Source: a virus. Taken from it: DNA of 20,508 bases. The DNA lies in the IMG/VR virus record IMGVR_UViG_3300023104_000021, positions 1 through 20,508 of that record. One strand, written 5' to 3'. Numbering within the stretch: the stretch's first letter is position 1; every line of letters starts with the position of its first letter. The notes beneath the pieces were generated by a model, which saw only the letters and a program-made list of their open reading frames with translations, ran no database searches and was not told the DNA's origin. Positions 2,856-20,508 of the stretch are shown here, in pieces. Position numbers and translations under genes: made by a program.

Positions 2856-3572
2856 ATTTGATTCTGCTTTTGGAATTACTGTGAGTGTGGGAATTGTAGG
2901 AGCGCCACAAGCGACAAACATTGCCTTTTGATCTTCGGTAACTTTCGCGGCTTCGCCTGAAATACCCGTGATAAAGCCCTGTTCTTTGGCTTCTTTAGCC
3001 GAAAGCCAAACGTCGCCTTTTGACCAATTTGCCTCAATGGTGGCTTCGTCAAGTCCTGTTTTTTGGGAATATGCTGTGCGGTACTGATTCGTGAGGTTTT
3101 GAAGCAATTTTAAATCGGCTGCGACTTTGTCCTCATTGCCCTGAATGAAGCCCATCGGTTTGTGATACATATACTGACCGTTATCAGCCAATTCGAAAGA
3201 ATCACAGATTAAGGCCAAGTATGATCCGGCCGATGCAACCAGCGCACCGCCATAACCTGAAATTTTGCCCGAGAATCTTTTAATCTCGTTGGCGATCTCA
3301 TTTGCTTCGAAAACAGAACCGCCCGGCGTATTGATGTAAAGCTTTACGTCTTTAATGCCTTTGGCGATCAGCTCATCAATTTTAAGTTTGAATTCTGCCG
3401 ATGAATTTTGCCATTGGTGGATTACACCTGAAATGCGTATTTCGGCGACATCATTACTGTTTGCCTGTGCGGTGATTTGTAATGGATACTGCTCTGCGAG
3501 TGCCGTGATGTTTAGGCCGCTAAACGCAATTATTAATGATGCCGTTAGTGCCGAAAATACTCTTCTGTTCAT
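2412..3572 (-). CDS. prohead protease (ClpP/S49-like, Mu gpI role) fused to C-terminal scaffold
   Basis: With the start at 3572 the protein has 386 residues. Residues about 41-215 are a ClpP-like serine protease: NTPGGSVFEA (81-90), ASAGS with probable nucleophile Ser114, YHKPM with probable His137, and the LSAKEAKEQGFITGI segment. Residues 240-386 are Ala/Gln/Glu/Lys-rich and helical, as expected of a scaffold. This fits the Mu I/Z and lambda C/Nu3 arrangement. Residues 1-26 are a clear Sec signal peptide (R3, R4, a hydrophobic core, then A-L-A before E27), which is unexpected for a cytoplasmic maturation protease. A longer in-frame start at 3785 exists but would overlap the divergent small-terminase gene, so I prefer 3572. 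It leads the left minus-strand head operon. Confidence 0.85.
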   Translation of the reverse strand: MNRRVFSALTASLIIAFSGLNITALAEQYPLQITAQANSNDVAEIRISGVIHQWQNSSAEFKLKIDELIAKGIKDVKLYINTPGGSVFEANEIANEIKRFSGKISGYGGALVASAGSYLALICDSFELADNGQYMYHKPMGFIQGNEDKVAADLKLLQNLTNQYRTAYSQKTGLDEATIEANWSKGDVWLSAKEAKEQGFITGISGEAAKVTEDQKAMFVACGAPTIPTLTVIPKAESNMKNRNEIIAKLKLAADATDEQIFAALSTTVDQNATAQQTIEAQAAAAKTTAETLVDKAILDKKITADVREEYVFLATTNLEKTKSILDKMPAISKASEHLHTPTEATAGREKWTLEDYQAKDPKALEALMVSDPDAFAKLEAEYFAK

Positions 3573-4509: not shown

Positions 4510-6035
4510 TGAAAAAACAGGACAAAATAAATGTCGAGCGGTACAAAAAGAAGCTCGAGCTCATTGCATCGTCCAGCAAATCATTTTACCAATACGAAAC
4601 GCCCGAAGAGCAAAAGCGCAACATTGAACGCGCCAAAAAGGACGTTGAATATTGTGTGGAACGATACTTTCCGCATTATGCGACGGCCAAATGTGCGCCG
4701 TTTCATATTTATTGGGCAAACAAGGTTTTAAAAGACAAAGGCTTTATCGGTTTTGCAAAGTGGGGTCGCGGCCTCGCAAAGTCCGTTTGGAATAATGTCA
4801 TTATTCCTTTTTGGCTATGGCTCAATGAAGGCGACAATTATTTTGTACTTATCGGTTCATCAGAAAAACGGGCAATCAGATTACTTGAAGACATTCGCGC
4901 TGAGTTCGAAGCCAACCCGCAGATTATTGCCGATTTTGGTGAGCAAGCCACATTGGGAAGCTGGACGGAATCGCTTTGGGTTACAAAAGGTGGCTTCATC
5001 GGTCAGGCGCTCGGTTTCGGCCAAAGCTGCCGTGGTCTAAGGGTTGGTACGAAAAGGCCAAAACAATTCAATATTGATGATACCGAAACCAAAGAGATCA
5101 TCAAAAACGCGAAACGTCAGGCCGAAATGGTAAGCTACATCGAAGAGGAATTACTGCCTTCGATGGACGGCGATGAAGAGCGTATGACAATTTCAAACAA
5201 CTGGTTTGCGCCCGAAATGTACATAAGAACATTGTCGGCAAAACATCCCGATTGGTACGTACACGAGGTCAGGGCTTACGATCCGGTAACTTATGAAGCA
5301 ACTTGGACGGAGAAATACAAACCGGGTTACTACAAAGCCAAAGAAAAGAAAATGGGCGTTTCATCCGCTCATGCCGAATATAATCACCAGCCGAAATTAA
5401 AAGGCGGCATTGTCTTTAAAATGGATTACATCCAATGGCGAAAACCGATAAGGATTGATCACTATAAAGTGATTTCAGCGCATTGGGATATTGCATACGC
5501 CGGAAGTGAAACTTCTGATTTCAACGCGGTCAGGGTTTGGGGTCTGAAAGAACAGGATTTTACTCTAATCGATTGTTTTGTAAAGCAATCGAAAATGGCT
5601 CCGGCCGTAAAATGGATGTGCGACTTTCAAAAAAGCTTACCGCAAGGCGTAACAGTAATTTGGCGCGCAGAAGCGCAGTTTTGGAATGATGAAGTTAAGC
5701 GCACAATCAAAGAGGTCGAAGAGCAGGAAGATGTAAAGCTCAACATCACATTGCAATACAACAAGCGAAAAAAATACGATAAAATTATTTTCGAGCTTGA
5801 AAGCCGCTACCAAAACGGCCGCATTTGGTATAGTGACAAATTAAAAAGCCACGGCGATACTGATGTCGGAATGCAGCAACTTTTCGGAATTGCGCCCGGA
5901 TATACAACCAAAGACGATGCGCCCGATGCCGATGCAGAAGCGATCGGCTTTCTTGCAAAACACATTACAATTTCCAGCGGCAAATCAGGCGATTGGCAAA
6001 GCGGACAATACGAATCAAATAACCACTACATGTAA
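4509..6035 (+). CDS. large terminase subunit (packaging ATPase and nuclease, Mu gp28-like)
   Basis: The 508-residue protein is the DNA-packaging motor. The ATPase half shows a variant Walker A, WGRGLAKS (residues 85-92), a Walker B FNIDD (187-191) with the acidic pair, and the ISNNWF coupling motif (228-233). The nuclease half shows the RNase-H-like core: HWDIAY with Asp327, the strand RAEAQFW around 390, and a C-terminal acidic cluster DAPDADAEAI near 475-485 supplying the last metal ligand. Length is typical for Mu-type large terminases. It overlaps the preceding stop by 1 bp and ends on the last base before or at the next ATG, so it is co-translated with its neighbours. Identification is secure from motifs and context. 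Confidence 0.92.
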   Translation: MKKQDKINVERYKKKLELIASSSKSFYQYETPEEQKRNIERAKKDVEYCVERYFPHYATAKCAPFHIYWANKVLKDKGFIGFAKWGRGLAKSVWNNVIIPFWLWLNEGDNYFVLIGSSEKRAIRLLEDIRAEFEANPQIIADFGEQATLGSWTESLWVTKGGFIGQALGFGQSCRGLRVGTKRPKQFNIDDTETKEIIKNAKRQAEMVSYIEEELLPSMDGDEERMTISNNWFAPEMYIRTLSAKHPDWYVHEVRAYDPVTYEATWTEKYKPGYYKAKEKKMGVSSAHAEYNHQPKLKGGIVFKMDYIQWRKPIRIDHYKVISAHWDIAYAGSETSDFNAVRVWGLKEQDFTLIDCFVKQSKMAPAVKWMCDFQKSLPQGVTVIWRAEAQFWNDEVKRTIKEVEEQEDVKLNITLQYNKRKKYDKIIFELESRYQNGRIWYSDKLKSHGDTDVGMQQLFGIAPGYTTKDDAPDADAEAIGFLAKHITISSGKSGDWQSGQYESNNHYM

Positions 6036-6460: not shown

Positions 6461-7734
6461 AAAATCCTTTTAAAGAAATTTACGGCAGATTTGAAAACAG
6501 CGTTTTAATGAATGCCGCTCCGTGGAAATTGCGCGTAGCTTCGGTTGCAAAAGGCGAAAAAGCGCCATCGCAGCAACTTGAATACGAAGCGGTTTCAATG
6601 CAGCGCCAAACCTTAAAAGAGTGGTCGGGATCAATTGCAGCAGCAACCGATCCCGATGAGCCGGATTTTACCGGACTTACAAAACTTATAAGGAATTTGT
6701 TGCTTGATAACCATACAGCATCCGTTATTGACAGCCGTATTTTGTTCGCGCAGCGATCGCCGTATAAAATTACCAATGAAAGCGGTGACGAAAACTTAGA
6801 TTTAACCTGGCTTTTTGAAAGGACTTGGTTTGAAGAGTTTATCCGGCTGACTTTGCTAACGAGAACTGAAGGCACGAAACTTTTAGAGCTGTTTGACCTT
6901 GATCCTGATACGAAGGAACTTGCTTCGGTTGACGAAATACCACGCCCACATTTTAATACCAAAAAAGGTATTATCACTAAAAGCCCGGGCGACAGTAACG
7001 GATGGCCATACAAAGAAGGCGCGCTCAAACCTTACTATATTCAGGTTGGAAAAGACAAAGACCTCGGCATGCTTGCCGATTTGGCGCCGATCATATTGGC
7101 TAAAAAATTAGGCTTCGGATCGTGGCTTGACTATATTGAAAAATACGGCGTTCCGGCGCTTTTTATCACTACCGACCGCGAAGACGATGCACGGCTTAAA
7201 GAATTGTTTACGGCTGCTTCGAAGTTCAAATCTAACGGCTTTATGGTTGGCCGTGGTCAGGAAAAATTTGAGATTGGAAAAAGCGAAGGCGGCAACGCTG
7301 ACAATTTTGACAAATTAATCGACCGGGCAAATAGTGAGATTTCAAAACGTATTTTAGGCGGTTCCGGACTTACCGATGAAAAGAGCTTTGTCGGTAGTTC
7401 AGAAATTCAATTTCGACTTGCAAAAGACCGATTTGAAAGCGATAAGCTGTTATTGAAAAACGTGATCAACGAGCAGCTTTTTCCACGGCTTCAAAAAATC
7501 AGTCCGGTATATTCAGTTTTAAAAGGCCATTACTTTGAGTGGGATAATACCGAAAGCCAGTCGGCAAAAGAAGTTGCTGAACTCATACAAATCCTGTCGC
7601 AAAACTTCGAGCTTGACGTCGAGGAAATCAGCCAAAAAACGGGCTTTAAAATCCTATCACAAAAGCAAAATACATTTGCCCCGACACCGCCAGTCGATGA
7701 GGAAGCTAAAAAAAAAAGCGAAGTGAAGAAATAA
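6457..7734 (+). CDS. portal protein (DUF935, Mu gp29-like)
   Basis: The 425-residue protein matches the Mu gp29/DUF935 portal family in length and style. Features include an early LKEWSGSIAAATDPDEPDFTG region (about 49-68), a long mixed core, GSWLDYIEKYGVPALF (about 222-237), a typical portal segment, and the helical KDRFESDKLLLKNVINEQLFPRL (about 326-348). Portals form the dodecameric ring at the head vertex and DNA channel. The C-terminal tail is charged and lysine-rich (EEAKKKSEVKK). The tail is encoded across a run of ten A at 7708-7717, and the next frame (MuF protein) is entered by a -1 shift at that run. The gene overlaps the upstream one by 4 bp. Confidence 0.88.
   Translation: MKNPFKEIYGRFENSVLMNAAPWKLRVASVAKGEKAPSQQLEYEAVSMQRQTLKEWSGSIAAATDPDEPDFTGLTKLIRNLLLDNHTASVIDSRILFAQRSPYKITNESGDENLDLTWLFERTWFEEFIRLTLLTRTEGTKLLELFDLDPDTKELASVDEIPRPHFNTKKGIITKSPGDSNGWPYKEGALKPYYIQVGKDKDLGMLADLAPIILAKKLGFGSWLDYIEKYGVPALFITTDREDDARLKELFTAASKFKSNGFMVGRGQEKFEIGKSEGGNADNFDKLIDRANSEISKRILGGSGLTDEKSFVGSSEIQFRLAKDRFESDKLLLKNVINEQLFPRLQKISPVYSVLKGHYFEWDNTESQSAKEVAELIQILSQNFELDVEEISQKTGFKILSQKQNTFAPTPPVDEEAKKKSEVKK
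7708..7717 (+). other. A10 run: candidate -1 frameshift site (or assembly error) joining portal and MuF frames
   Basis: Ten consecutive A lie at the end of the portal gene, read as AAA AAA AAA AGC in the portal frame. A -1 slip gives ...KKKRSEEITAIFREI and then the MuF frame, which is open from 7710 onward with no stop. Between 7710 and the GTG at 7797 the MuF frame contains no ATG, GTG or TTG, yet it reads like protein (IDASYHAGDCGCEIC). Runs of A in this phase are classical slippery sites (A AAA AAA/G). The alternative is a homopolymer length error or an unusual start. No downstream hairpin was worked out. Confidence 0.45.
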
Positions 7735-9128: not shown

Positions 9129-9623
9129 ATGAATACAATACAACCGCCTGATTTTTTAGCAATTGCCGAATCCATTAAAAAGGAAATCCGGCGATATGCA
9201 AAGGTTTATTGTTTGCAATGGTTCGATGACAGTTTCCAAAATCAGGGTTTCACCGATGCTTCCTTTCAGGCATGGGAAAAAAGAAAAGAGCCGGATAGAC
9301 GATCGGGTGGCGCAATCCTGATCGACACGGCCTTTTTGCGTAAAAGCTTGCAAGTTTTGGGAGAAACACAGCGAAACATCGAATTTGGAACGCATGCTCC
9401 TTACGCCGGGCTTCACAATAATGGCGAACGCATGCGGGTGATCCAAAACGTACGGGCGCATCACAGGACGCGAAAAGGAAAGCGCGAACAGGTCAAAGCG
9501 CACACGCGGAAGATGGACACAAAATATCCAAAGCGGCAATTTATCGGCGCGAGTAAACAAATGATGGACGGGTTAGATACCTGGCTTTTAAAAGAAGTTG
9601 AAAAACGATTTAAACAAGAGTAA
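9129..9623 (+). CDS. Mu gpG-like virion morphogenesis / tail completion protein
   Basis: The 164-residue protein fits the phage virion morphogenesis family (Mu gpG, P2 gpS-like). Landmarks are FTDASFQAWEKRKEPDR (41-57), ILIDTAFLRKSL (63-74), IEFGTHAPYAGLHNNGERM (84-102) and PKRQFIGASKQM (134-145), all characteristic of this family. It is strongly basic in the middle (HHRTRKGKREQVKAHTRK). The role is completing the head-tail or tail end interface. It is the first gene after the 66-bp gap and stem-loop behind the MuF gene, with an A/T-rich leader (AATATAATAATTTTTT) before the ATG. The next gene starts 2 bp after its stop. Confidence 0.8.
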   Translation: MNTIQPPDFLAIAESIKKEIRRYAKVYCLQWFDDSFQNQGFTDASFQAWEKRKEPDRRSGGAILIDTAFLRKSLQVLGETQRNIEFGTHAPYAGLHNNGERMRVIQNVRAHHRTRKGKREQVKAHTRKMDTKYPKRQFIGASKQMMDGLDTWLLKEVEKRFKQE

Positions 9624-9625
9624 AA

Positions 9626-10147
9626 ATGCAAAATTTTAAAGAATTATACATCGAGCTGTCGGAAAAGGTATCGTCAAAAATTGACAGCGTTAAATGGGTT
9701 GACCTGTGGAACTCGCAAGTTTATAACCTCGAGAGCGAACACCCATTTCCAGCGCCTGCCGTTTTCTTAGCATTCCGCAGTAACAACATGAAAGATATTG
9801 GCGGGAACGTTCAGGCCGTAGTTATTCAGGTTGACATTTTCCTGTTTTATGAAACTTTCCTTGACACTTACAAAGGAGCGTACAATCAGGCAGAAGCTTT
9901 GGACTTTTTAGACACACTGGATCAGATCAACCAAATATTTCACGGGAGCAGCGGCAAAAGTTACAGCTCGATGTCGCGTGTATCTTTTAGCCCGGTCGAT
10001 ACTGGCGGAGCTGGCAACCTTTTTAATGTGGTGTATAATTGTACGCTTATGGATTACAGCGCAGCGCCGCAAATTGCTGAAGGTACTTTTGGGGAAATGG
10101 AAATTGAACCGAAGGCCGAAAACCGTTACATTATTCCGGTTGGGTAA
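9626..10147 (+). CDS. putative neck / tail-terminator-like protein, last gene of the late operon seen
   Basis: The 173-residue protein starts MQNFKELYIELSEKVSSKI and contains VDLWNSQVYNLESEHPFPAPAV, a beta segment VVIQVDIFLFYE and a central helix EALDFLDTLDQINQIFHG. A start helix, a Pro-rich strand and then a repeated beta-alpha pattern of about this length recalls tail terminator or minor tail proteins (Mu gp37 position), but I cannot assign a family with certainty. It lies 2 bp behind the gpG-like gene. It ends in a 17-bp tail-to-tail overlap with the minus-strand gene at 10131-10364, so the tail sheath and tube genes expected next are not here. Confidence 0.6.
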   Translation: MQNFKELYIELSEKVSSKIDSVKWVDLWNSQVYNLESEHPFPAPAVFLAFRSNNMKDIGGNVQAVVIQVDIFLFYETFLDTYKGAYNQAEALDFLDTLDQINQIFHGSSGKSYSSMSRVSFSPVDTGGAGNLFNVVYNCTLMDYSAAPQIAEGTFGEMEIEPKAENRYIIPVG

Positions 10148-12955: not shown

Positions 12956-13801
12956 TTAGTCGGTGCAACCACCTGAATTACACATTGTGAAATCGTTGAC
13001 CTCCGAAAATAAGTTCCAATATTCAGTTTTAAAAATTTCCCAATATGTTATTCTATCGTCGTGCCAGGTTACGTTTTTTTTGTCAAGTCGCAGTTTTTTA
13101 TCTTCTTGCATTGCAAACCATTCTAAAATTTCAGGGTCTTCTTCATAATTTCTTTTAATTACTTCGTTTGGCTTATGATGGCAGCCTGCGCAATTTGAAT
13201 CCCACGGGAAATCTACCTCGGGAAAATTTTTGATCCACCATGATCTGATCTGATAATGAAAAGTTGTCTTTAATGGGAACTGCTTAATTTGCCAATCAAA
13301 TTCAGCCCACTTTTGATGGTTCATTCCAAAATTATCGCATGAAATAGGGCGTTCAATAGTTCGCTGTTTACCACCTTTTAAAATTCGTTCCGGTTCGTCG
13401 CCTCTAAAACCAATATTGTGGATTGTCTTACCGTATCGAGGGAATAAATATTCGAAAATCGGTATCATCTTCATTTCTGTTGTACAAAATCTACGCGCCC
13501 ATGTTGGAAGAGCCGAATTTTCGTCAATTACTTGATCAAAAGACTTACCACGAACCCAAACAATTTCTTTTCCTAAAATCTGCTCTAAATCCATCAAAAC
13601 GCGTAATGTTTTTTGACGTTCTGCACTTGCAATAAAATTACCGTCCAGTTTTTCGAGCGCGTATTTTAAGATGGCTGGGTCTTTTGGCGCAGCTTTGTGG
13701 TAATCGATACAAACGCATGCGAATATGTTTACATCAGCTGGATTATGAATCGCCATGTAAGAACTTGTTTTACCTCCCGAAACTGAATTGACTGTTATCA
13801 T
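12956..13801 (-). CDS. PP-loop (PAPS reductase-like) phage enzyme with cysteine pairs
   Basis: The 281-residue protein is an adenine-nucleotide alpha-hydrolase: SGGKTS (residues 8-13) is the PP-loop, followed by RRFCTTEMK with Cys106, IGFRGDEPER (130-139) and a cysteine pair CAGC (204-207), ending in CNSGGC (274-279). These match the phosphoadenosine phosphosulfate reductase family found in phages. The extra cysteines could hold an iron-sulfur cluster or carry sulfur, so tRNA/DNA thiolation or sulfur transfer is more likely than assimilatory sulfate reduction. It shares one base with the stop of the upstream gene and is followed by an ASCH gene. The precise substrate is not known. Confidence 0.8.
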   Translation of the reverse strand: MITVNSVSGGKTSSYMAIHNPADVNIFACVCIDYHKAAPKDPAILKYALEKLDGNFIASAERQKTLRVLMDLEQILGKEIVWVRGKSFDQVIDENSALPTWARRFCTTEMKMIPIFEYLFPRYGKTIHNIGFRGDEPERILKGGKQRTIERPISCDNFGMNHQKWAEFDWQIKQFPLKTTFHYQIRSWWIKNFPEVDFPWDSNCAGCHHKPNEVIKRNYEEDPEILEWFAMQEDKKLRLDKKNVTWHDDRITYWEIFKTEYWNLFSEVNDFTMCNSGGCTD

Positions 13802-15310: not shown

Positions 15311-15634
15311 TTATTTGTATTTGTGTGCGACTACGCCGCCAATTGCAATAATGATTTTTGAGAGTTCAGCCTTATCCATTTCAAGCAATGGCTTTTTAAC
15401 CGGGGATTTGTCGCTTTTCAGGAAATCACTTAGCCTTTCGAGGTCTGCAACGTCGCCGTATTTTTCATGTTTTACCGTCCATTTCGCACTACGCATGAGC
15501 GATAATATCTGCATGTGTTGGATATTTGTTTTTTTAAATAATCCCCAATTTTCATTGCTTTGCGGCTGTTCCGACTTGTAATTGTCGATGGCGCTGCCTG
15601 TGCCTGTGTAAACAAGTGGTTTAGTTGCTGTCAT
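15311..15634 (-). CDS. hypothetical protein
   Basis: The 107-residue product starts MTATKPLVYTGTGSAIDNYK, has a helix HMQILSLMRSAKWTVKHEKY and a C-terminal helix ELSKIIIAIGGVVAHKYK. No family recognised. It overlaps the upstream gene by 14 bp and its stop directly abuts the next start codon. No signal peptide; the C-terminal hydrophobic stretch is too short for a membrane segment. Confidence 0.6.
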   Translation of the reverse strand: MTATKPLVYTGTGSAIDNYKSEQPQSNENWGLFKKTNIQHMQILSLMRSAKWTVKHEKYGDVADLERLSDFLKSDKSPVKKPLLEMDKAELSKIIIAIGGVVAHKYK

Positions 15635-15833
15635 TCTGAATTTTTTTTAAAGCTTCTAAGTGAAAGGACATGCTACACAATAAATCTTGCGTGCGTTGCA
15701 GTTGACGTTTTGACATTGGGGATTTTGCTCTTTTAAGCTTGTAAGTATTGTCATCGACAATGTTTACAACATCTTTGCACAATTCGTCGAGCGGTATTAA
15801 TGTGAATTTTACTTGTTTAGTTTCTACTGCCAT
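15621..15833 (-). CDS. hypothetical small helical protein, first gene after the tRNA-like elements
   Basis: From ATG at 15833 the product has 70 residues, beginning MAVETKQVKFTLIPLDELCK; the second half (SKRQLQRTQDLLCSMSFHLEA) is helical. A longer reading to 15905 would run back through the tRNA-like RNA sequence and translate it, which is implausible, so the ATG at 15833 is chosen. The leader between the RNA element and the ATG is A/T-rich. It overlaps the next gene by 14 bp. Being the first gene after two structured RNAs, its expression may depend on processing there. Confidence 0.6.
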   Translation of the reverse strand: MAVETKQVKFTLIPLDELCKDVVNIVDDNTYKLKRAKSPMSKRQLQRTQDLLCSMSFHLEALKKIQNDSN

Positions 15834-15856
15834 TTTTATAAGTTTTAATATTTGTA

Positions 15857-15930
15857 CCCGGAGCGGGGATCGAACCCGCAAGGCCGCGCCTTTTGCTCCG
15901 CTCACACACTTCCGGGACTTGACACAGTGT
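15857..15930 (-). ncRNA. tRNA-like RNA element 1: acceptor stem and T-arm, no anticodon arm
   Basis: Read 15930 to 15857 on the minus strand. A T-arm with canonical loop, GCGGG-TTCGATC-CCCGC (15879-15863), is followed at once by TCCGGG (15862-15857), which pairs with CCCGGA (15916-15911) to form a 6-bp acceptor-like stem. Immediately before the T-arm is a perfect hairpin AAGGC-GCG-GCCTT (15892-15880), placed like a class II variable arm. Only 18 bases (15910-15893) remain for D and anticodon arms, enough for at most one short stem (a weak D-arm-like AGCGGA lies there), so a full cloverleaf cannot form. ACACT (15930-15926) may pair with AGTGT (15910-15906), enclosing the acceptor strand in a pseudoknot. 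It could be an RNase P/Z cleavage signal in the early mRNA or a cis element. Confidence 0.6.
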
Positions 15931-15950
15931 GGTATTTGGTAATGTCTGCT

Positions 15951-16020
15951 CCCGGGGCGGGAATCGAACCCGCAAGCTTGCGCTTTTACGATTAACCCGG
16001 GTCACCAACTTAACTATCGT
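15951..16020 (-). ncRNA. tRNA-like RNA element 2: acceptor stem and T-arm, no anticodon arm
   Basis: Read 16020 to 15951. The T-arm GCGGG-TTCGATT-CCCGC (15973-15957) is followed directly by CCCGGG (15956-15951), pairing with CCCGGG (16001-15996). A hairpin AAGC-GCAA-GCTT with a GNRA loop (15985-15974) abuts the T-arm, just as in element 1. Only ten bases separate it from the acceptor 5' strand, so there is no room for D or anticodon arms. ACGAT (16020-16016) can pair with ATCGT (15992-15988), enclosing the acceptor 5' strand, again as in element 1. The arrangement is shared while the connecting sequence and hairpins differ, which argues for selection on structure. It begins 3 bp after the stop of the upstream gene. 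Confidence 0.6.
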
Positions 16021-16023
16021 TGA

Positions 16024-16173
16024 TTACTTTATGTGGTTGAGTTTTTCCATTTTGTCAGCAAACCATTTGCTGAAAACGACTACCAGCAATCCGGCAAATG
16101 GTAGCGCTAAAATTGCTCCGACAATCAAACCCAAAATTGTAAGGAGCTTTTCAATATCATGCAGCGTGATCAT
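16024..16173 (-). CDS. small single-pass membrane protein
   Basis: From ATG at 16173 the product has 49 residues: MITLHDIEKL, a long hydrophobic segment LTILGLIVGAILALPFAGLL then VVVF, and a basic tail KWFADKMEKL. The hydrophobic stretch is long enough for one, perhaps a bent, membrane helix. The ATG follows the upstream TAG by 1 bp; a longer reading would overlap it. The family is not recognised; small membrane proteins in early operons of transposable phages sometimes act in superinfection or host interference. It directly precedes the tRNA-like elements. Confidence 0.6.
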   Translation of the reverse strand: MITLHDIEKLLTILGLIVGAILALPFAGLLVVVFSKWFADKMEKLNHIK

Positions 16174-16174
16174 G

Positions 16175-16849
16175 CTATACTGAAAATCTGAATTCAAGCT
16201 TTTTAGTGCGATTCTCGGCAACTTCTATCATTTTCCAACCGCTAACAAAGCTGCTACCTTTTACGCGGTGCTGTGCGGCGATTATGATGTCAAGACCTTC
16301 CTCAAATTCAGGCGAGTTGAACGTACTTCGCATTTCGTTGAGCTGGATGATCTTGATTGGGTTAAGCATGTTGGTTTTAAGGTTCGGTTTCAACAGCAAC
16401 TTGCATGCGATCGCCAGTTTTTGCAGATTTTCGTTTTCTGTGTCACCGGAAAGAGCGTCGAGGTAATCCGTGACCATTTGCACTCCCGCGCTTTCAGTTC
16501 CATCAAACGAAATATTGACGTTATAGCCAATCGTAACACTACATTTTCCTTCAGGATGCGTTACAGTGTGGCTTTCCTGTTCTAATCGATCAAGACCGTA
16601 TATGTCCGCTTTTAATTTCAAGATGTTAGTGAAACCAGCAAAAACGTTATTTACAATTTTCTCAACGTCCATTTGTTGACTGATCAATGTGTCGATGTTG
16701 GCTTCTACAAACTGCGTTGACAGTTCCTTTAAGGTTGCGATATCGCCTTGACGCTTTTCTTTTTCGGCTTTGTCCTCAGCCTTAATTTGCGCCTGTAGTG
16801 CTTTGCGATCCGCTGATGATAATTTTTTGATGTCGAGTGTGTTTTCCAT
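16175..16849 (-). CDS. DUF3164-like early protein of Mu-like phages
   Basis: The 224-residue product has a charged, helical N-terminus (SADRKALQAQIKAEDKAEKE), then VEKIVNNVFAGFTNILKLKADI, and a beta segment HPEGKCSVTIGYNVNISFDG, followed by helices and NPIKIIQLNEMRSTFNSPEF near residues 163-182. Order and spacing resemble DUF3164, a family seen in early regions of Mu-like phages after the transposition genes. Function is unknown. It lies 8 bp behind the gene at 16858 and 1 bp ahead of the membrane protein. The assignment is by overall pattern and position. Confidence 0.65.
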   Translation of the reverse strand: MENTLDIKKLSSADRKALQAQIKAEDKAEKEKRQGDIATLKELSTQFVEANIDTLISQQMDVEKIVNNVFAGFTNILKLKADIYGLDRLEQESHTVTHPEGKCSVTIGYNVNISFDGTESAGVQMVTDYLDALSGDTENENLQKLAIACKLLLKPNLKTNMLNPIKIIQLNEMRSTFNSPEFEEGLDIIIAAQHRVKGSSFVSGWKMIEVAENRTKKLEFRFSV

Positions 16850-18100: not shown

Positions 18101-18542
18101 ATCTGTTTTTGGCGGTGTAATAGGCTTTATTACTCACGTTTTTTCGTTTTAAAAAAGCCTGTAATGTTTCGGTTGGTGATTTTTCGGCGAGTAATTTTTT
18201 AAACTGAGCTTCTGTAAATTTTGGTTTGGTGTTTATTCCCGGCGAATTGTGACTAAAGCCTGTGCCTTGAACTGACCAACACAAATTTGAATAGTGATTT
18301 CCTGCCGTCTGATTAACTTTTTTAACCACATAGTCAAGATTTTTCGACATTCCGTGCCAACACTCGCAAACAAGGCGCATCACAGTTACCGTTTTATAAC
18401 CAACCGCGACAATCTCCATTGGTACGCTGTTATTTTTACGTTCATAGGTCTTTGACACTAAAGCTTCACCTTTATAAATAATTGAAGTTCCGTCTTCATT
18501 TACCCTCAAACCTTCTACTATTGGATGATTGCGATAGTTCAT
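18093..18542 (-). CDS. HNH-like protein with degenerate active site
   Basis: The 149-residue protein has the scaffold of NUMOD/HNH_3 phage endonucleases: an N-terminal beta part with VSKTYERKNN, then VTVMRLVCECWHGMSKNLDY and VVKKVNQTAGNHYSNLCW (about 72-89). In active enzymes the second segment reads V.HH(I/D)..N..N..NL.W; here the two histidines are Lys74-Lys75, though the Asn residues and NLCW remain. The metal site is therefore probably lost and it may act as a DNA-binding protein. The C-terminus (FTEAQFKKLLAEKSPTETLQ) looks like an HTH-type helical region. It shares one base with the MuB gene stop and overlaps the ATPase by 8 bp. Confidence 0.65.
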   Translation of the reverse strand: MNYRNHPIVEGLRVNEDGTSIIYKGEALVSKTYERKNNSVPMEIVAVGYKTVTVMRLVCECWHGMSKNLDYVVKKVNQTAGNHYSNLCWSVQGTGFSHNSPGINTKPKFTEAQFKKLLAEKSPTETLQAFLKRKNVSNKAYYTAKNRYE

Positions 18543-19387
18543 TATGCGGCTCTTTTATTTGCAAAAATTAATCTCCGTACTCTTCTGATATCGCCGTCGC
18601 AATCTTTGGAAATACTGCGGATTGTTGCGCTGTCTTCGATTCCGTTGGCTTTACAAACCTTTTCGACGTCGATATAGCTCGTTTGCTCCAATTCAATAAA
18701 TCGAAGCCCTACGCGGCTATAAATTTCCCTGTAACCTTTCTTTTCGATCGCCGCACCACGTTTGATGCGTTTCTCTAAAAAGTGTGTGGCCATAAGCACA
18801 ATTCCGCAGTGATTTTCCAGCTCGTTGTAAAGTGTGATGAAAAACAAAAGCACGTTATCAGCAAGTTTGTCGGCTTCATCCATAATGATGATCGGATTTT
18901 CAAGCGCTTTCAATAATTGCGTGACCTTGTACATCATTTCGGGAAGTGTTAAGCCAGCGTGATCTTTACCCATTTTCGCTAACAATTCGCGCAGGAACCA
19001 ACGTTTATCCCAGTATTCGTTACACGAAAGCAAAAACACATTTTTGTTTTCACTTTCATATTTTTTCGCGGTTTCAGATTTACCCGCTCCGGCTTTTCCG
19101 GTTACAGCGATAACCAGCGAATGCGCTTGAGAATCGGTAAAAAATTTGATCAGCTCCTGTGAGTTGATTGTTTCGGCAAAATTCCAGTTGCTTGACGATG
19201 ATCCGGTGTAAGCAGCAACTTTGCGCCACATCTCTTCGGCAATATTGTCCCAATTGTGGTTTCGCATTTGTGAAATTGTAGCCGAGGAAACGCCTGGCAT
19301 TTCTGCGGCCACTTTATTTGCCGAACCTTTTATGGTAATCATTCGCTCTAAAGCTTCAACGGTTTGTATTTTGTCTTGATGTGTCAT
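18542..19387 (-). CDS. MuB-like AAA+ ATPase, transposition target activator
   Basis: The 281-residue protein has an N-terminal helix-turn-helix (NKVAAEMPGVSSATISQM, about 24-41), Walker A GKAGAGKS (97-104), Walker B IIIMDEAD (166-173), an HFLEKR sensor-like segment near 208 and a C-terminal DNA-binding region with DGDIRRVRRLIF. HTH plus AAA core is the MuB design: ATP-dependent DNA binding that delivers target DNA to the transposase and protects the phage from self-insertion. It follows the transposase gene with a 40-bp gap, as in Mu. ATG at 19387 gives the full HTH. Confidence 0.9.
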   Translation of the reverse strand: MTHQDKIQTVEALERMITIKGSANKVAAEMPGVSSATISQMRNHNWDNIAEEMWRKVAAYTGSSSSNWNFAETINSQELIKFFTDSQAHSLVIAVTGKAGAGKSETAKKYESENKNVFLLSCNEYWDKRWFLRELLAKMGKDHAGLTLPEMMYKVTQLLKALENPIIIMDEADKLADNVLLFFITLYNELENHCGIVLMATHFLEKRIKRGAAIEKKGYREIYSRVGLRFIELEQTSYIDVEKVCKANGIEDSATIRSISKDCDGDIRRVRRLIFANKRAA

Positions 19388-19427: not shown

Positions 19428-20508
19428 TCAGTATTTTGAATTAAGTGATAATCTATCGGCTTCCATTTGCTGCTCTTTGGGGAGATGTCCCTGAAACTTG
19501 ATCATTAGTTCCTGCTCTTCAATTAAGCTTTCGCGGGTGATGCCTGTGCGATAAATCAAATTTTCGTAAGCTTCCTGATCGCGTTTTAATTCAGCGTCAC
19601 GAATAGCGATATCTTCGAGTAGCATTGCTTTGGAATTTTCGACCATTAACACCGGAATGCTTTCGTGAGCGCGTTTTTTCTGTGCGTAAGTGATGAAGCG
19701 CTTTTCGCCCGAAGGTGTCAATTCATAAAGGGCGACGTAATCGTTTAAATATTCCGGATCATAGCGAACGATCAATTTTTCATTTACCCATTTTCTGCGG
19801 AAATCAAGATCGATTTTTCCTGCGGCGTCATAAACTTCAAATAAATAGTCTTGGCCTTCGACCGTCAGAGGCAAACCGTGTGCGTAGTATTTCTTTTCTT
19901 TGGTTTCATCTATCCAAAACAATGAAAGTTGATCCATCATGTTTATAGCTTCGCGGTGTTCGGTTTCTTCGGCATATCTTTCGTTCCTGCTGATTGCCCA
20001 ATCTTCTTGTTTGCCAGCATTCCACTTATTGACCAATGCCTGAAATATTTTATTAAACTCATCGACTGTCGGCAGCGCCTCTTTATATTCAACAATAAAG
20101 TCGGTGTTTGGTTTGTTGGTGGCAGTTCTAACTTTGATTCCTTGTTTGTCGGAAAACCACATTTTGGAAATAACCTGTTGTTGCAAACGGTTAAATATTT
20201 GCTCTGCCGGGGAAGATTTACGCCCAACTTTGTGGCTGTAATGTGTACCGCCTTTTGCCGGAAGCCTGTCGTATAAATCCTGCATCCTGCCAGAGGTGTG
20301 ACCCGATTGCTTATCGTAAGTAAAAAGAAACGGGCGGCAGCCGCTTTCGTTAACAGCTCTTTTAATCGCTCTAAAGTGTGATGCGTGGTTTTCGCTGTAT
20401 GCAATATCCCAACCAATGATCCTTTCGCTGTGAACGTCAAAAACAACGTTTATTTTTAATTCAGCAGCCATCTTTTGTTTGTTGTTTGCGAAGTGCACCA
20501 AATCGAGC
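19428..20508 (-). CDS. MuA-like DDE transposase, 5' end cut by window edge
   Basis: The frame is open to the right edge, and the visible product is about 359 residues of the C-terminal part. The first visible strand VVFDVHSERIIGWDIA is the second beta strand of the RNase-H-like core; the first catalytic Asp is probably just off the edge. FTYDKQSGH supplies the second Asp, and KSSPAEQIFNRLQQQV the catalytic Glu. Downstream residues carry the beta-barrel region (LTPSGEKRFITYAQ) and an acidic C-terminal helical tail (SLIEEQELMIKFQGHL) where MuA contacts MuB. It is the most upstream visible gene of the early operon. The apparent TTG start at 20501 is an artefact of the edge. Confidence 0.9.
   Translation of the reverse strand, partial: LDLVHFANNKQKMAAELKINVVFDVHSERIIGWDIAYSENHASHFRAIKRAVNESGCRPFLFTYDKQSGHTSGRMQDLYDRLPAKGGTHYSHKVGRKSSPAEQIFNRLQQQVISKMWFSDKQGIKVRTATNKPNTDFIVEYKEALPTVDEFNKIFQALVNKWNAGKQEDWAISRNERYAEETEHREAINMMDQLSLFWIDETKEKKYYAHGLPLTVEGQDYLFEVYDAAGKIDLDFRRKWVNEKLIVRYDPEYLNDYVALYELTPSGEKRFITYAQKKRAHESIPVLMVENSKAMLLEDIAIRDAELKRDQEAYENLIYRTGITRESLIEEQELMIKFQGHLPKEQQMEADRLSLNSKY

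Follow-up and report, generated by a model that had tools for sequence, protein, structure and literature searches.

On the evidence of sequence comparison, two tRNA-like elements in the early operon of a Mu-like phage, here designated A and B, are members of a phage family of tRNA top halves present in transposable phages of Bacteroidota. More than 50 relatives were recovered from Mu-like phages and prophages of Flavobacteriia, where most occupy the same gene slot; phages of Bacteroidales yielded a few, at other early positions. No description of such a family was found in searches of the open-access literature, and the phage publications consulted do not mention the elements. The window analyzed here is the whole IMG/VR virus record, a Mu-like phage contig of 20,508 bases, for which a direct DNA similarity search against sequenced phages returned no match.

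Elements A and B and their gene neighbourhood

Besides the MuA-like and MuB genes, the minus strand of the window carries a string of small early genes, and both elements lie on this strand within a 190-nt intergenic gap (15834-16023) between two of them (Table 1). The gene that marks the upstream side of the slot gave no match in a Pfam search, and a DUF3164 gene is annotated at the corresponding position in Phage Peternella_1. A homologue of the small membrane-protein-like gene preceding A also precedes the element in prophage L199.

Table 1. Features of the window around elements A and B (E-values of model R1 are rough).
Feature	Position	Strand	Basis or remark
MuA-like gene	19428-20501	minus
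MuB-type AAA ATPase	18542..19387	minus (strand of the elements)	Pfam AAA_22 1.1e-16, TniB
Gene at the position of the DUF3164 gene of Mu-like phages; upstream mark of the conserved slot	16175..16849	minus	synteny in relatives
Upstream small membrane-protein-like gene	16024..16173	minus	stop codon 21 nt before the acceptor of A
Leader of A	16003..16019	minus	comparison with about 30 relatives
tRNA-like element A	15947..16002	minus	sequence; model R1 35.6 bits, E=3.1e-6; T-arm also matched by the tmRNA model
Hairpin AAGC-GCAA-GCTT directly 5' of the T-arm of A	15974..15985	minus	sequence; minimum-energy fold
tRNA-like element B	15853..15917	minus	model R1 26.3 bits, E=3.6e-4; homologous monomer in prophage L199 at 3886
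Hairpin AAGGC-GCG-GCCTT directly 5' of the T-arm of B	15880..15892	minus	sequence; minimum-energy fold
Downstream early gene	15621..15833	minus	ATG 22 nt past the acceptor end of B; ORF list and spacing table
Conserved early gene; downstream mark of the slot	15311..15634	minus	synteny

Each element retains the top half of a tRNA, as a preliminary description of this DNA had proposed, with a 6-bp acceptor helix, a T stem paired at 5/5 positions and a canonical T-loop, and both D and anticodon arms are absent. In A, the acceptor strands ACCCGGG (16002-15996) and CCCGGGA (15956-15950) form 6 of 7 pairs, the end pair being A x A, and enclose a 22-nt linker and the T-arm GCGGG-TTCGATT-CCCGC (15973-15957), followed by the trailer GCA (15949-15947). 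The acceptor of B (TCCCGGA, 15917-15911; TCCGGGT, 15862-15856) likewise forms 6 of 7 pairs with a T x T end pair, around a 31-nt linker and the T-arm GCGGG-TTCGATC-CCCGC (15879-15863), the trailer being ACA (15855-15853). In both cases the end of the linker forms a hairpin, and the earlier count of 10 and 18 bases for everything else was correct. This small hairpin before the T-arm, initially presented as part of a common plan, exists in A and B but is not universal in this form; most short elements instead have a tiny D-loop-like linker with GG. The other part of that plan, a shared pseudoknot closed by a 5-bp P1 helix, was not sustained: a leader-linker helix occurs in 10 of 32 elements versus 9.5 expected from shuffled linkers. 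The P1 letters ACACT/AGTGT and ACGAT/ATCGT do exist in the window; linkers of 11-14 nt leave scant room for P1.

The leader of A, CGATAGTTAAGTTGGTG, is a divergent copy of the family leader GGTTAGTTAATTCGGTT, which sits between the preceding stop codon and the acceptor. L199 has one counterpart, which corresponds to B and stands alone; A, which comes with a separate leader, appears to be a copy added in the window. The outer strands of A and B can pair at 7/7 positions, versus 6/7 for each element pairing with itself, as they would in a nested double of the kind present in L004 and L226; this outer pairing is present in the minimum-energy structure of the whole stretch, and each half alone is also plausible, so that the predicted fold of A and B could also be that of a nested double. 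As the minimum-free-energy z-scores of the window elements were modest, the case for them rests on comparative evidence.

Scanned under strict criteria (all 5 T-stem pairs, a TTCRANY loop, 6 inner acceptor pairs and a gap <=40), the window gave 2 matches versus 0.09 per dinucleotide-preserving shuffle, and 2 matches were reached in 0/300 shuffles. ARAGORN reported neither a tRNA nor a tmRNA in the window, in agreement with the initial view that these are not ordinary tRNA genes. In an Rfam search of the window, RF00005 was not reported up to E = 5, and only a 17-nt T-arm was matched, as a fragment of tmRNA (RF00023; 17 bits versus a gathering score of 47); a few long family members (L017, L216, L190 and L004) do score with RF00005. 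A covariance model, R1, was built from 24 short elements of other phages, excluding the window, and with filters off A and B were its sole good matches in the window (Table 1). Standard annotation misses most elements because tRNA finders demand an anticodon arm.

Relatives, conserved core and variable interior

MuB and the neighbouring downstream ATPase were used as protein anchors to search viral contigs and genomes, yielding over 50 early regions of Mu-like type, the majority from Flavobacterium; these two queries did work, whereas the DUF3164-like protein as a query found nothing. The slot was defined by its two borders, the DUF3164-like gene on the upstream side and, on the downstream side, the homologue of the window gene at 15311. 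A tRNA-like element was present in 33 of the 52 protein-anchored slots and absent from the other 19, a count that places L224 (same element as L220) among the slots with an element and L037 (element upstream of MuA) among those without, omits loci fetched by pattern or model, and includes a few near-duplicates, e.g., L025 and L028. Lysogens with an element include F. degerlachei DSM 15718 (L025) and F. geliluteum (L017). Further loci were obtained by searching with the core, or with the 5' leader and 5' acceptor strand only. All 18 leader-pattern loci have a matching T-arm and 3' acceptor strand (18/18), neither of which was required by the pattern, and they provide what we consider the least biased evidence for pairing. 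L015, a pattern match that looks like a genuine tRNA-Leu remnant, was left out of the family. Across 399 Flavobacterium genomes, model R1 gave 12 matches, 12/12 of them in Mu-like prophage early regions; 9 lie in prophages already collected, and the other 3 have the same neighbouring genes. An exact pattern gave 3 matches in the same genomes, all in Mu-like prophages, and the reversed control pattern gave none.

In an alignment of 44 distinct acceptor/T-arm cores, 98.3% of the cells were paired, changes on both sides occurred at 11 of 12 pairs, and the covariation score was 0.559 versus 0.156 in shuffles, with 0/500 shuffles reaching any of these measures; some of the cores came from a scanner that itself required most of the pairs, and kinship among the sequences inflates the counts. 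The compensatory changes in the acceptor that the preliminary description had proposed to look for are therefore present, and acceptor and T-stem both covary across relatives. The helix from the T-loop to the end sums to about 11-12 bp, even where the junction is shifted (L010 at 3794, and L229), the T-stem of the former taking 7 pairs and the acceptor fewer. The smallest members measure 45-48 nt, and the 48-nt element of L150 reads TCCCGAG-TGAAAATGGCTTTT-GCGGG-TTCGAAT-CCCGC-CTCGGGA-GCA. GG was found in 17 of 18 short linkers versus 10.9 expected, which by analogy with the tRNA elbow suggests a D-loop-like contact to the T-loop. In many elements the leader (TTCGG) could instead form a hairpin with the 5' acceptor strand, but on inspection the two do not change jointly (L031, L010, L189).

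Conversely, the interior (linker) ranges from 11 to 116 nt across the family. An anticodon-arm test requiring a 5-bp stem, a 7-nt loop and U33 was passed by 26/26 host tRNAs and by 1/51 elements, the one being a weak AU-rich case; the absence of anticodon arms first noticed in A and B thus extends to the family, and the relatives display neither the full cloverleaf tRNAs nor the non-covarying decay that had been named as contrary to a novel RNA. Some interiors are tRNA-Leu-like with enlarged anticodon loops (L007, L034, L201, L208), that of L017 has a D-arm and a hairpin in the anticodon loop, and those of L004 and L006 keep a D-arm and have lost an anticodon stem strand. L004 and L226 carry fused doubles, in which the 5' acceptor of the first half pairs with the 3' acceptor of the second, and the inner strands pair over 7 bp beneath a GAAA cap; on inspection, one of these pairs is compensated (CAGAGTT-GAAA-GGCTTTG versus CGAGATT-GAAA-GGTTTCG). 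Since the top half is kept and covaries while the anticodon arm is nearly always missing, selection appears to keep the top half and to remove or neglect the decoding half, and simple decay cannot explain such selective keeping. We read the loss of the anticodon arm as selection against making a chargeable tRNA that could misread codons. As a separate observation, an interior of 92-93 nt is common to three distant phages (L158 2280-2406, L202 3944-4067 and L223 about 4600-4722), with a well conserved sequence (CCCGCCACCCGTTATGTCAAGG or close variants) and without a clear fold.

Position in the operon and occupants of the slot

All elements are intergenic and lie on the sense strand, and no antisense copies were seen. 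In about three quarters of cases, the next open start codon falls at +21 to +25 nt from the acceptor end, and the preceding stop codon is usually 7-31 nt before the acceptor; in distant elements (L042, L094, L013 and the P. gingivalis phages), the start codon is 15-25 nt downstream. The genes behind the element vary between phages. In L022, which has no element, a relative of the same upstream gene type is joined to the downstream gene with few bases between, and this downstream gene type also stands behind elements in L150, L156 and L199. The variable downstream genes, together with close relatives that have no element, indicate a removable, modular cis cassette at the 5' side of a cistron.

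An Rfam search of the slot in 17 element-free relatives identified no known ribozyme or Rfam RNA. In L008 (about 6699-6735) and L011 (about 9599-9635), a plain 9-bp hairpin, TACCGGATA...TATCCGGTA, fills the slot instead of a tRNA-like element. In L009 (5890-6130) and in Winogradskyella phage Peternella_1 (L254, NC_062754; 6845-7070), the slot is occupied by about 200 nt of another conserved sequence, unannotated, in which the two phages have several blocks in common and a possible closing helix, TTGGTG/CACCAA against GCAACC/GGTTGC; it had no match in Rfam and is possibly another structured RNA. Ahead of the next start codon, a recurring 5'-UTR motif, ATTACNATAATCAGTAATAATC...TATTACAC, was observed in L006 (about 7338-7390), L008 (about 6738-6790) and L011 (about 9638-9690), that is, both with and without a tRNA-like element.

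Elements remote from the usual slot are less numerous, and not all of them are clear-cut. One directly precedes a DNA methyltransferase gene in an Alistipes-like Mu phage (L013, host guessed from composition); another, in L106, precedes the ATPase gene; and in L037, L042/L044 and L094/L095 the element lies upstream of MuA. Deposited transposable phages of P. gingivalis have elements of the same kind before MuA, where their records carry no RNA annotation. In one of these (L256, BK068094), a tRNA-like element with a D-arm and a broken anticodon arm occupies 3097-3166, directly before MuA, and the MuA coding sequence of the record (from 3111) begins inside it, so the deposited start is probably wrong.

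Proposed processing of the early message and competing explanations

With roughly even confidence, we interpret the elements as minimal substrates of RNase P and RNase Z that act in cis as punctuation of the early mRNA. In this model, the early polycistronic transcript would be cleaved at the 5' side of the acceptor by RNase P of the host and at the 3' side by RNase Z or else an exonuclease. Transposition genes upstream would thereby be separated from the early genes downstream, and the cistron that follows the element would begin with a short leader, A-rich and about 22 nt long. Model substrates reduced to acceptor stem, T-stem and T-loop are cut by RNase P at the canonical site, and the enzyme also processes several phage and mRNA structures (PMC11143913). 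In favour of cis processing, the part recognised by RNase P (acceptor and T-stem) is conserved and all else is free, and other RNA-like structures occupy the same slot in some relatives (L008/L011, L009 and Peternella_1). We infer that the elements are transcribed and cleaved, with an effect on expression, whereas their shape, covariation, arm loss, slot, strand and spacing are observed. On the other side, the fixed spacing partly reflects the common descent of leader and trailer, the element is dispensable, being absent from roughly one relative in three, and a strong hairpin would be cheaper if message separation alone were needed. Further, an RCCA end, for which bacterial RNase P usually has a preference, is encoded in none of the elements; CCA is also not encoded in 24 of the 26 listed host tRNAs (one strain).

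The main alternative, possible but tentative, is a trans-acting tRNA mimic, i.e., an excised, CCA-tailed mini-tRNA that would bind and distract a host protein gripping the acceptor/T-arm half, whether a tRNA-cutting defence nuclease or a tRNA-modifying or end-processing enzyme, the missing anticodon keeping it out of translation. Only the part visible to acceptor-gripping proteins is indeed conserved, and the fast-changing interior and the recurrent emergence of new tRNA types (Leu-like, GCTC-D-arm, fused doubles) are what an arms race might produce. Such defences exist, including Cas12a3 from a Bacteroidetes bacterium, which loads tRNAs by their T-arm, acceptor stem and CCA tail and also cleaves truncated ones (PMC12851939). 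However, a trans-acting RNA would need neither a single copy, nor a constantly intergenic location in the operon, nor a start codon at a fixed distance; moreover, no promoter of its own was recognised, and the T1-A72 end pair is typical rather than constant. We find doubtful the more specific proposal of fast-evolving, anticodon-free mimics that are cut from the early message, CCA-tailed and directed in trans at a host protein recognising acceptor and T-arm, e.g., as decoys for Cas12a3-type nucleases; if it were true, an arms race would have left its mark in different tRNAs being captured and gutted repeatedly, each time independently. The conservation of the TTCRANY T-loop and of the 11-12 bp helix points to a tRNA-specific reader, which, together with the fact that a plain hairpin would suffice, makes it unlikely that the elements are uncleaved cis insulators or stabilisers, whose compact elbow fold would block exonucleases or ribosomes and leave the next ribosome binding site open, even though this role would suit their constant position and spacing as well as the plain hairpin (L008/L011) and the other conserved RNA-like stretch (L009/Peternella_1) in the same slot.

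Two further readings appear very improbable. Recognisable D-arms and the apparent loss of anticodon strands (L004, L006, L017 and the P. gingivalis phages) recall decaying, functionless copies of captured tRNA genes; nevertheless, decay would hit all arms alike, whereas more than 40 distinct elements have an intact acceptor and T-stem that show compensating changes, a canonical anticodon arm persists in just one, and every genomic match falls in a Mu-like early region. A DNA-level boundary for module exchange or integration, with the conserved leader and palindrome serving recombination rather than an RNA, would be compatible with flanking genes that vary around a conserved segment of roughly 90 bp, tRNA 3' halves being common att sites (PMC9897764). 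Against it, the elements are always sense-oriented, their acceptor strands change together so that RNA pairing is preserved over DNA sequence, and these phages transpose, with no integrase or partner half-site seen. The preliminary description had already set aside remnants of an attachment site, in agreement with the position inside the early operon, the retention of the 5' acceptor strand and the recurrence of the element at the same slot in about 60% of relatives.

The tRNA-like domain of tmRNA (RF00023) resembles the elements in its acceptor, T-arm and stemless D-loop, the T-arm of the window matching model positions 347-363; nonetheless, the elements have neither a tag reading frame nor an SmpB-type or pseudoknot domain, and their score is well under the gathering threshold. 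Phage-encoded tRNAs with altered anticodon loops were reportedly described by van den Berg et al. in eLife in 2023; there too the anticodon region departs from that of host tRNAs, but those tRNAs are complete and carry loop mutations, whereas here the arm is gone or broken. In mascRNA of MALAT1 and the tRNA-microRNA precursors of murine gammaherpesvirus 68, a tRNA-like element lies in a longer transcript, and trimming by RNase P and RNase Z defines the transcript end; these are eukaryotic, belong to different transcripts and have no homology to the phage elements. The RNase P model substrates have the same minimal shape, with an acceptor stem stacked on a T stem-loop and a leader upstream, although they are synthetic with a 3' CCA, and the phage elements are natural, have RCA instead of CCA and lie inside an operon (PMC11143913). 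Phage RNAs cut by host RNase P include the C4 antisense RNA of P1/P7, the M3 RNA and the dimeric pre-tRNAs of T4 (PMC11143913). The T4 pairs are likewise closely spaced and without an encoded CCA but yield working tRNAs, and C4 and M3 have RNA roles of their own, whereas the elements described here have no anticodon arm and stand between protein genes.

If the elements are processing sites, transposable phages of Bacteroidota would use the tRNA maturation machinery of the host as a generic scissor for polycistronic messages, and the family would offer dozens of natural minimal RNase P/Z substrates with linkers from 11 nt upward; if trans-acting, they would add a novel type of tRNA mimic to the conflict between phage and host. 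Apparently intact tRNA-Met(CAT) genes were also observed in other Mu-like phage contigs (L052 298-372, L072 15314-15388 and L074 13772-13844). Elsewhere in the early region of the window, the minus-strand gene at 12956-13801 resembles by eye a PAPS-reductase/DndC-like enzyme, with the motif SGGKTSSYM.
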